Shown piece by piece: positions 14,358 through 18,243 of a stretch of DNA of 64,000 nt. The stretch is from Candidatus Woesearchaeota archaeon (GTDB taxonomy: Archaea; Nanobdellota; Nanobdellia; Woesearchaeales; ARS49), in NCBI GenBank assembly GCA_003599055.1, contig QZIM01000018.1, forward strand, positions 1-64,000, in the 5' to 3' direction. The notes below the pieces were generated by a model, which was given only the letters and a program-made list of their open reading frames with translations, was not told the origin of the DNA and searched no databases. Numbering within the stretch: the stretch's first letter is position 1; each line of letters begins with the position of its first letter. The position numbers were made by a program, and so were the translations under genes.

Positions 14358-14438
14358 GAAAAGAAAATGTTAACTCCCGAGTGGAACAAAGGTAGTGAAA
14401 AATTATTTGGCAGACTATAGCTTGAGTTGCGTAAATGT

Positions 14439-14519
14439 TTAAATATCATTTCCATTTATTGTATTTTAGTCCGACGAAGACCACAATATGTTGTGGTTTT
14501 TGTCACTTCAAAAAAGTGA
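14439..14519 (+). promoter_or_regulatory. nrdR promoter/leader: TATA-like tttaaata, NrdR-box-like palindrome, second dyad
   Basis: tttaaata; ACCACAA-TATG-TTGTGGT at 14480-14497; tcactt-caaaa-aagtga at 14503-14519. Confidence 0.6.
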
Positions 14520-14539
14520 GTGAGAAAAAAAGGTGAACG

Positions 14540-15025
14540 ATGCGCTGCCCATTCTGTAAATTCGAAGACACCAAAGTCCTTGACAGCAGGCTCACCCCCG
14601 ACTTTGCCAGCATCCGCCGCAGGCGCGAATGCCAGGAATGCGAAAAACGATTCACCACTTATGAACGGATGGAAACAGAAGAACTCAGCATTGTCAAGCG
14701 CGACGGCCGACGAGAACCGTTCTCCCGTGAAAAGCTTCTTAAAGGAGTACTGCGCGCCTGCGAAAAACGGCCCGTGAAGCGCGAGCATATGGAGAACATC
14801 GTCGCGCTTGTTGAAAACGCAATCCGCGCAAACAGCAAAAACGAGCTGCGCACGAGCAAGGTGGGGGAAATCGTGATGAACGAACTTGGCAAAATAGATG
14901 ACGTTGCGTATGTGCGCTTCGCAAGCGTCTACCGCAAGTTCCGCCACGCAGACCAGTTCGTTGACGCAATCAAACACTTACGCAAAATGGAGACCGTGCC
15001 AAACGCAACCGCAGGTCTTCGCTAA
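14540..15025 (+). CDS. nrdR: Transcriptional repressor NrdR (Zn ribbon + ATP-cone)
   Basis: MRCPFCKFEDTKVLDSR...RRRRECQECEKRFTTYER...VKRDGRREPFSREKLLKGVLRACEKRPV. Confidence 0.93.
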   Translation: MRCPFCKFEDTKVLDSRLTPDFASIRRRRECQECEKRFTTYERMETEELSIVKRDGRREPFSREKLLKGVLRACEKRPVKREHMENIVALVENAIRANSKNELRTSKVGEIVMNELGKIDDVAYVRFASVYRKFRHADQFVDAIKHLRKMETVPNATAGLR

Positions 15026-15048: not shown

Positions 15049-17634
15049 ATGACACCAATAAAGAACGACGCCAAGGAAATCGCAAAAGAATGGGACAAGC
15101 CCCCTTTCGGAAACATCCCCCTTACGGAAAACCAGCGCAAAGTCATCACCGACAAATACCTCCGCGACGACCCCTCCGTTGAACACTGGCTCTGGAACAT
15201 TGCAAAAAACATCGCACTTGCAGAACTCCTCTACCACCCTGAAATTCCCCGCGCGCAAATCCTTGCAGGCGTCCGCCACACCCAGGAATGGGTCGATGTG
15301 GGCGCAGGAGAACAGAGCGAACTTCTCCTCATTCACGCAGGAGCCCGCGGCCACAACGACCAGGACCAAAACCACCACCGGTTCATCCAAAACCTCTACA
15401 AGCTCGTCGAAAACTCACCGCGCGCCCGGGAAATCATGCTCAAGACCGGAACACAATTCTACGATATGCTGGCAAATTTTGACTTTTTGCCCAACAGCCC
15501 GACACTTATGAACGCCGGACGGGAACTCCAGCAGCTCAGCGCGTGCTACGTCCTTCCCATTGAAGACAGCATTGAAGGATGGGGAGACCTTGTCAAGCAC
15601 ACCATGCTCATCCACAAGAGCGGCGGCGGAACCGGCTTTAGCGGCTGCCGCGTACGCCCAAAAGGAGACCGCGTCAAAAGCACCAAAGGAGTCGCATCCG
15701 GCGCGCTCTCGCCGCTTTCCATCATCAACCACGCAACCCAGGAAGTCAAGCAGGGCGGAACGAGGCGCGGCGCGAATATGGGCATTTTGCCCTACTGGCA
15801 CCCCGACGTCATTGAATTCATCAAGTACAAAGCAGAAGAAGGCAAGCTGGAAAACTTCAACATTTCCGTTGCCGTCGACAAAAAATTCATGGAAGCAGCG
15901 CGCAAAGGCGAAGACTACGATATGCTCAACCCGCGGACCAAAGAGCCCGTCGGCAAACAGAACGCGAAAGAAGTCTTCAACATGATTGCGGAATACGCGT
16001 GGAAAACAGGCGACCCCGGAATGATTTGGATTGACCACATCAACGAATCGCTCTCAAACCCAACCCCAAAAATCGGGCAAATTGAAAGCACCAACCCCTG
16101 CGGAGAACAGCCGCTTTTGCCGTACGAGCCGTGCAACCTTGGCTCGATTAACCTCGGCAAATTCGTCGTTATGGGAAAAATCGACTACGCACGCCTTGGA
16201 GAAATCGTCAAGCTGTCCATCCGATTCCTTGACAACGTGATTGACGTCAACAACTATCCTTTGCCGCAAATCGAGCACATCGCAAAAGGAAACCGCAGAA
16301 TCGGCCTTGGCGTTATGGGCTGGGCGGAACTTCTCGCACTCATCGGCGTCCCCTACGACAGCCCCGAAGCGATTGCAAAAGCGGAAGAACTTATGCAGTT
16401 CATCAACGCAAAAGCACTTGAAGCAAGCGAAGAACTCGCACTTGAACGCGGCGTCTTCGCCAACTTCAAAGACAGCATCTTTGATGCAAGCGGACCATAC
16501 CACCGCGAATACGCAAAAGGCCGCCCGCGCAACTGCGCGCGCACAACCATTGCACCAACCGGCACCATCGCCATTTGCGCAGGACTCCAGGGCGGAGGCA
16601 TCGAGCCGTTCTTCAGCATCGCATACACACGCTACAACGCAAAAGCACTCGATATGCTCAAGAAAGGACAAACCCCTGACGAAAAGGACGTGTTCCACGA
16701 AGTCAACCCGATTTTCCTTGCCGTCGCCGAAAAACACAACTATTTCGGCCTGAAACCGCAGGAACTCTGGAAAAAAATTGAAAACAACCACAACTCGGTC
16801 CGCGGCCTTAAGGAAGTCCCCGAAAACCTGCAGCGCGTCTTTGCCACTGCACACGACGTGAACGTTGAATACCACGTCAAACACCAAGCAGCATTCCAAA
16901 AATACACGGACAACGGCGTGTCAAAAACAATTAACATGCCCAACAGCGCAACGGTTGAAGACATCAAAAAGACCTATATGCTGTCCTGGGAACTCGGCTG
17001 CAAAGGAATCACCGTGTACCGCGACGGCTGCAAGAGCCACCAAGTGCTCAACGTCACCAAAAAAGAAGAAAAGGCCAAAGAAAAACCAAAAGCAGACCCT
17101 GCGGAAGGAATCGGCTCGGTTTATTACCAACTCGACACCGGACACGGGCCAATCCACATCCACGTTGACCACCACGACGGAGCAATCCAACGCGTGTTCA
17201 CCTCAATTACCCCCGTTGGGACGGAAATTTCCGGCCTTACCGCAGTTATGGGCATTTTGATTAGCAAATACCTGCAACTCGGCGGCGATGTCAATGAGAT
17301 ACGAAAACACCTCAACAGCATCAAAAGCGACAAGCCGCACGGCTTTGGCCCCAAACGCGTCGAAAGCATCCCGCACGCAGTCAGCGTTGCCCTGTCCAAA
17401 TTCATGGCACAATCAGGCGCACTGCCCGGACAACAGCTTTTGACCCCGCACACGGACAAGCCCACACCGGAAGTCCAGGCACAACTGTCCGTCACGGTCA
17501 AACAACCGGCCCAGGAACAACCGCACGCAGAAGACAACAAGCACTGCCCAAAATGCTTTAGCCCGAACGTTGCAATGCTCAGCGGCTGCTCCGGACCCAC
17601 GTGCTATGAATGCGGGCACTCTGAGTGCAGTTAA
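15049..17634 (+). CDS. nrdJ: Class II (adenosylcobalamin-dependent) ribonucleotide reductase
   Basis: NSPTLMNAG, SGGGTGFSGCRVRPKGD, NPCGEQPLLPYEPCNLGSINL, ARTTIAPTGTIA; C-terminal Cys-rich tail. Confidence 0.92.
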   Translation: MTPIKNDAKEIAKEWDKPPFGNIPLTENQRKVITDKYLRDDPSVEHWLWNIAKNIALAELLYHPEIPRAQILAGVRHTQEWVDVGAGEQSELLLIHAGARGHNDQDQNHHRFIQNLYKLVENSPRAREIMLKTGTQFYDMLANFDFLPNSPTLMNAGRELQQLSACYVLPIEDSIEGWGDLVKHTMLIHKSGGGTGFSGCRVRPKGDRVKSTKGVASGALSPLSIINHATQEVKQGGTRRGANMGILPYWHPDVIEFIKYKAEEGKLENFNISVAVDKKFMEAARKGEDYDMLNPRTKEPVGKQNAKEVFNMIAEYAWKTGDPGMIWIDHINESLSNPTPKIGQIESTNPCGEQPLLPYEPCNLGSINLGKFVVMGKIDYARLGEIVKLSIRFLDNVIDVNNYPLPQIEHIAKGNRRIGLGVMGWAELLALIGVPYDSPEAIAKAEELMQFINAKALEASEELALERGVFANFKDSIFDASGPYHREYAKGRPRNCARTTIAPTGTIAICAGLQGGGIEPFFSIAYTRYNAKALDMLKKGQTPDEKDVFHEVNPIFLAVAEKHNYFGLKPQELWKKIENNHNSVRGLKEVPENLQRVFATAHDVNVEYHVKHQAAFQKYTDNGVSKTINMPNSATVEDIKKTYMLSWELGCKGITVYRDGCKSHQVLNVTKKEEKAKEKPKADPAEGIGSVYYQLDTGHGPIHIHVDHHDGAIQRVFTSITPVGTEISGLTAVMGILISKYLQLGGDVNEIRKHLNSIKSDKPHGFGPKRVESIPHAVSVALSKFMAQSGALPGQQLLTPHTDKPTPEVQAQLSVTVKQPAQEQPHAEDNKHCPKCFSPNVAMLSGCSGPTCYECGHSECS

Positions 17635-17703: not shown

Positions 17704-18243
17704 ATGTCCATTTCCACAAAAACAGGTGACAAAGGAGAGACTTCGCTTATCGGCGGGGACCGCGTGCGCAAAAATGACTCGCGCATTGAAGCGTACGGAA
17801 CGGTTGACGAACTCAACGCGCTCCTCGGGGTTTGCCTAAATGTCATTGAAAGCCCGGCGATAAAAAGTGTTATTTCGCAAGTCCAGCACGACCTTTTTAC
17901 GATTGGGGCAGAACTTGCCGCGCTCAACGGAAAAGAAATGACGATGAACCTGCCCAAATTAACAGAAGAACACCTTGCATTCATTGACTCCGCGCTTGAA
18001 ACAACCGAAGGCGCGCTGCCACAACAGCGCAATTTCATCCTGCCAAAAGGAGTCCCGAGCGCTGCGCATTTGCACCTTGCACGCACGGTCTGCCGCAGGG
18101 CAGAGCGAGGCATTGCCGCGTGCGCATCACACAACCCCAACCCAAACATTATGCGCTATCTGAACCGCCTTGGCGATTTGCTCTTCCTCTTCGCACGGCT
18201 CGAAAACAAAGGAAAAGCCCCTGAAGAAGCAGTGCAGTACTAG
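17704..18243 (+). CDS. PduO-type ATP:cob(I)alamin adenosyltransferase
   Basis: STKTGDKGETSLIGGDRVRKNDSRIEAYGTVDELNALLG; LPKGVPSAAHLHLARTVCRRAER. Confidence 0.92.
   Translation: MSISTKTGDKGETSLIGGDRVRKNDSRIEAYGTVDELNALLGVCLNVIESPAIKSVISQVQHDLFTIGAELAALNGKEMTMNLPKLTEEHLAFIDSALETTEGALPQQRNFILPKGVPSAAHLHLARTVCRRAERGIAACASHNPNPNIMRYLNRLGDLLFLFARLENKGKAPEEAVQY

Follow-up and report, generated by a model that had tools for sequence, protein, structure and literature searches.

The window analysed here, the whole stretch of 64,000 nucleotides from a Woesearchaeota contig, contains an nrdR-nrdJ locus whose leader carries a perfect palindrome. The following features were located on this DNA.

14438..14445, + strand: TATA-like box of the nrdRJ promoter, TTTAAATA, read directly
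14449..14464, no strand assigned: upstream degenerate candidate NrdR box, TTTCCATTTATTGTAT, with a consensus score of 15/24, at an offset of -32 from the main box
14468..14468, + strand: predicted transcription start, ~26 bp past the middle of the TATA-like box, placed by general archaeal promoter geometry
14473..14504, + strand: extended imperfect dyad, GACGAAGACCACAA-TATG-TTGTGGTTTTTGTC, with 14-nt arms that are 86% complementary and the potential to form a leader RNA hairpin
14481-14496, no strand assigned: main candidate NrdR box, CCACAATATGTTGTGG, conserved before nrdR in relatives; the perfect dyad extends to 14480-14497
14503..14519, no strand assigned: second dyad, TCACTT-caaaa-AAGTGA, judged to lie outside the operator
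14532..14535, + strand: Shine-Dalgarno-like GGTG before nrdR, read directly
14540..15025, + strand: nrdR, encoding a Zn-ribbon and ATP-cone repressor of 161 aa (TIGR00244, 192.8 bits; cut-off, 124.65)
15049..17634, + strand: nrdJ, encoding a class II (adenosylcobalamin) ribonucleotide reductase (RNR) of 861 aa (TIGR02504, 640.9 bits; cut-off, 399.95)

In bacteria, NrdR represses the synthesis of DNA precursors when these are abundant. The protein encoded in the window had a two-CxxC Zn-ribbon followed by an ATP-cone (Pfam Zn_ribbon_NrdR, 72.8 bits; ATP-cone, 85.6 bits) and aligned over its whole useful length with the solved bacterial NrdRs 7p37 and 9fxk. Cryo-EM of Streptomyces coelicolor NrdR assigned the DNA contacts to D15, R17, RRRR at 26-29 and R37 (PMC9110341), and all of these residues were kept at identical positions in the window protein, with K12 in place of R12. 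The nrdJ gene, presumed to be the co-regulated target of NrdR, began directly past the nrdR stop codon, and no ATP-cone was detected in its product by Pfam. A second, unlinked nrdJ in the same genome (L275; G000:C10:11160-12818) had its own ATP-cone and no NrdR box before it. The presence of these two copies suggests transcriptional control of the NrdR-linked enzyme and allosteric control of the other. A general rule, whereby NrdR control always replaces the ATP-cone of the enzyme, was rejected, as cones were present in nrdR-linked RNRs of four genomes (G016, G023, G024 and G025) and in the nrdD products that were examined. A gene for a PduO-type cob(I)alamin adenosyltransferase followed nrdJ (17704-18243); it seemed to have a TATA-like promoter of its own and had no NrdR box. 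This enzyme could provide the class II RNR with its cofactor.

A perfect 7-bp dyad, ACCACAA-TATG-TTGTGGT, had been described in the nrdR leader by the earlier note and was found at 14480-14497, 42 bp from the nrdR start codon. The dyad alone was unremarkable, as the window had 10 perfect dyads of 7 bp around a 4-nt centre. The NrdR-box consensus given in that note, aCaCwAtATaTwGtGt, was right, since a review prints it in the slightly shorter form acaCwAtATaTwGtg (PMC4009431). Agreement of the core, CCACAATATGTTGTGG, with this consensus had been put at 14 of 16 positions; recounting gave 13 of 16 (3 mismatches), with all of the strongly conserved inner positions matching. Only one consensus site with ≤3 mismatches was detected in the window versus 0.11 expected, and an exact, zero-mismatch CACWANATNTWGTG occurred at this site alone in the 1.15-Mb genome. 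No excess indicative of a wider regulon was observed in this genome, which had 76 sites with ≤2 mismatches versus 93 for the reversed-pattern control. Contig 23 had a site with one mismatch (L245), which was discounted, as it lay within an apparent long repetitive coding region. A TATA-like motif upstream of the dyad had also been noted, and TTTAAATA was present there, with its end 35 bp from the dyad; AATGTTTAAATA occupied the TATA-like position in aligned relatives. In several sister loci, too, nrdR was preceded by GGTG.

Conservation was examined in 117 nrdR loci of the same archaeal order (Woesearchaeota-type), which were drawn from the top of the NrdR-score ranking and many of which came from fragmentary assemblies. 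The 200 bp upstream of each gene was scored against the bacterial consensus with strong positions doubled (maximum, 24), a literature-based score and not a trained profile. A scan of relatives had been proposed as the check on the palindrome, and scores of ≥19/24 were obtained for 68/117 loci versus 1.4 expected from dinucleotide shuffles, counts that are not independent because the loci are related. No coding control scored ≥19. Approximately 40% of the sampled loci had no box before nrdR. The inspected close relatives had a related palindrome 5' of the gene. The pooled archaeal logo, aCAC(A/T)A(y)AT(r)T(w)GTGt, with an A-rich left flank and a T-rich right flank, agreed with the NrdR box.

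Bacterial NrdR binds pairs of boxes with spacers of 14-17 bp (and 24-27 bp), and binding is two orders of magnitude weaker otherwise (PMC12051234). Every offset around the main box was scored for a partner in the 74 box-bearing loci. The best partner lay at an offset of -32 in 25 loci, -31 in 12, -33 in 6, +32 in 6, +31 in 5 and +33 in 1, and the mean score at -32 (z = 5.0) was the sole one at a distant offset to stand clear of the background. These putative partner boxes, 31-33 bp apart (15-17 bp spacer) and hence separated by three helical turns, fit the bacterial NrdR pair spacing. A tandem pair was clear in most relatives, whereas the partner at -32 in the window was present but degenerate (15/24); as this upstream box is weak, the pair may be bound with low affinity. 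The upstream box sat between the TATA box and the predicted start, and TTTC.A.TT.TAGTAT was observed at exactly this place in four sister genomes (L004, L008, L009 and L013). In relatives, TATA-like motifs were concentrated 10-27 bp 5' of the upstream box, which would put the start within or close to the first box and leave the second one in the leader. The earlier note had pointed to a second dyad about two helical turns further on. This dyad was present at 14503-14519, centred 22.5 bp downstream, but was out of register and not recurrent; no peak was detected at a spacing of 22.5 bp and the dyad was lost in most sister leaders, so its candidacy as a partner site was rejected.

The boxes were associated with RNR genes. 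The gene after a box-bearing nrdR encoded an RNR in 64/74 loci (45 nrdJ and 19 nrdD, the latter assigned by a sequence motif, with Pfam NRDD confirmation for two), compared with 3/43 for box-less nrdR genes (Fisher p = 2.5e-18). In 30 genomes with a box-less nrdR, 7/32 RNR upstream regions had high-scoring boxes versus 0.43 expected. For example, one genome with a stand-alone nrdR (L301) had ACACTATATATAGTGT before its RNR gene and a partner, ATACAATATATAGTGT, at +32; in most stand-alone cases, no box was found before the examined RNR gene either. Four family members lacking nrdR had no convincing box before their nrdJ genes, with one weak candidate at a score of 19 (L278). This distribution (linkage to RNR genes, occurrence in trans and co-loss) indicated that the motif goes with RNR operons and with NrdR rather than with the nrdR gene itself. 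Behind box-less nrdR genes, for example at L040, L043, L184 and L202, there was often a small gene resembling P-loop nucleotide kinases (MIIGLTGKNAAGKGE...), possibly for a dNMP or cytidylate kinase and hinting at another dNTP-related gene cluster.

NrdR was encoded in 186/237 sampled genomes of the phylum, and box pairs were detected beyond the order. Class-level nrdR loci had a pair at exactly 32 bp in 6/7 of those examined. When GTDB species genomes were scanned for ACCACAANNNNTTGTGGTTTT, at least four archaeal loci were detected; among the matches listed, all four archaeal ones were nrdR-nrdJ leaders, three from Woesearchaeota and one from Aenigmatarchaeota. An Aenigmatarchaeota nrdR-nrdJ locus (L055:3951-4489) had a strong single box, CCACAACATCTTGTGG, ~100 bp before nrdR and directly after a TATATATA stretch. 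In haloarchaeal plasmid nrdR operons (L336-L340), paired NrdR-like boxes 29-30 bp apart were observed in 5/5, just after a TATA-like motif. Preservation of the palindrome upstream of orthologous archaeal nrdR-RNR loci, with the tandem spacing specific to NrdR, bore out the NrdR-box reading of the earlier note, and the palindrome is almost certainly, as judged by these comparisons, an NrdR box on an archaeal promoter. If so, a bacterial-type regulator would act on an archaeal promoter, with binding and repression both predicted.

It is highly probable that nrdR-nrdJ of this Woesearchaeota-type archaeon is controlled by a tandem NrdR operator, of which the palindrome forms the strong half. The sequence features, their conservation and spacing, the RNR link, co-loss and the contact residues support DNA recognition, spacing and targets; binding, nucleotide control and the mode of repression are inferred from homologous systems. 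Box 2 (14481-14496) and the degenerate box 1 (14449-14464) would lie on the same helix face, three turns apart, straddling the predicted start. At high dATP levels, NrdR carrying dATP and ATP (or ADP) would assemble into a tetramer that holds both boxes and bends the DNA; such a tetramer on both boxes was demonstrated by cryo-EM for S. coelicolor NrdR (PMC9110341). The bound tetramer would cover about -19 to +28 relative to the predicted start, occluding the loading of TFB/RNA polymerase and blocking promoter escape. Both nrdR and the class II RNR would be turned down as a result, while ATP-only NrdR would release the DNA. Control would be autoregulatory because nrdR is the first gene of the operon.

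The leader contains a further element with the potential to act as RNA. A CCGACGA sequence (14471-14477) was present in the inter-box spacer and, with its counterpart 3' of the main box (14501-14504; GTC or TCGTC in sisters), extended the dyad to a potential 14-bp RNA hairpin. The 14473-14504 segment folded as a 14-bp hairpin with z = -2.2, and CGACG/CGTCG occurred near boxes in 13/74 loci versus 2.5 expected, lengthening the hairpin in the family of the window. The extended dyad is a family-level feature. An archaea-specific route, in which a strong box directly after the start and a half-box between the TATA box and the start allow the tetramer to trap, and not exclude, TBP/TFB/RNA polymerase while the GACGA-flanked leader hairpin (14473-14504) adds RNA-level control, is conceivable but improbable.

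We consider it quite unlikely that the dyad acts as RNA alone, with the leader hairpin serving as an attenuator, terminator or stability element and not as a DNA operator. The hairpin does lie inside the predicted transcribed leader, its 14-bp fold is followed by five T residues and close sisters lengthen the dyad by GACGA...TCGTC flanks. Across 119 archaeal boxes, however, C4, A6, T11 and G13 were nearly invariant while positions 5/12 could pair in 65/119 and positions 7/10 in 33/119. The two-box spacing of 31-33 bp is a rule of the DNA helix, and boxes accompanied the RNR gene whether or not nrdR adjoined it. A terminator scan detected no intrinsic terminator (G+C-rich stem plus T run) at the leader, and there was no match to an Rfam covariance model even at E values up to 1.

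Still more remote is the prospect that the site serves a different archaeal transcription factor and resembles an NrdR box by coincidence. In its favour, many other regulators use palindromic operators close to archaeal start sites, and NrdR binding is itself a prediction. The archaeal logo, however, equals the published bacterial NrdR box (PMC4009431) and the pair spacing equals that of NrdR; moreover, the sites track RNR operons, and nrdR-less genomes lacked convincing boxes. A chance palindrome, for which the ten comparable dyads in the window could be cited, has a negligible probability, being refuted by the preservation of both place and sequence in sisters and across the order and by the unique exact consensus match in the genome.

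With the tandem NrdR operator thus preferred, the locus can be set against known systems. To our knowledge, little is known of gene regulation in DPANN archaea, and these findings would extend dNTP control to this group. NrdR-type boxes were present in at least three archaeal groups, and the sequences point to a concrete case in which one nucleotide-sensing repressor, with its operator, would serve bacterial (sigma) promoters as well as archaeal (TBP/TFB) ones. On every feature testable from sequence, including location at an RNR promoter, the candidate operator and its regulator agreed with membership of the NrdR/NrdR-box system. A 2014 review stated that NrdR boxes are absent in archaea (PMC4009431), and later papers describe NrdR as rare in archaea. 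No description of archaeal NrdR boxes, the haloarchaeal ones included, was found in the literature searched, beyond which others could exist. What is new is the domain, archaea, and the published negative of PMC4009431 is corrected.

The S. coelicolor nrdRJ operon (PMC9110341) shares with the window the nrdR-nrdJ order, a class II RNR, the NrdR domain plan and the contact residues, as well as a pair of palindromic 16-bp boxes that overlap the start region and are separated by about three helical turns. The window differs in having an archaeal TATA promoter and not a sigma-factor promoter and in having one strong and one degenerate box. In Escherichia coli, the nrdHIEF, nrdDG and nrdAB promoters have 16-bp boxes with 15-bp spacers, and box 2 of nrdAB, a weak or non-canonical partner, can still allow tight binding (PMC12176259). 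The E. coli targets are of classes I and III, whereas the window target is of class II; nrdD is found in other Woesearchaeota relatives. The haloarchaeal nrdR-nrdB-nrdA plasmid operons, which have been ascribed to transfer from bacteria (PMC3019208), likewise place nrdR ahead of RNR genes in an archaeon and have paired boxes, but differ from the window in their class I RNR and slightly shorter spacing.
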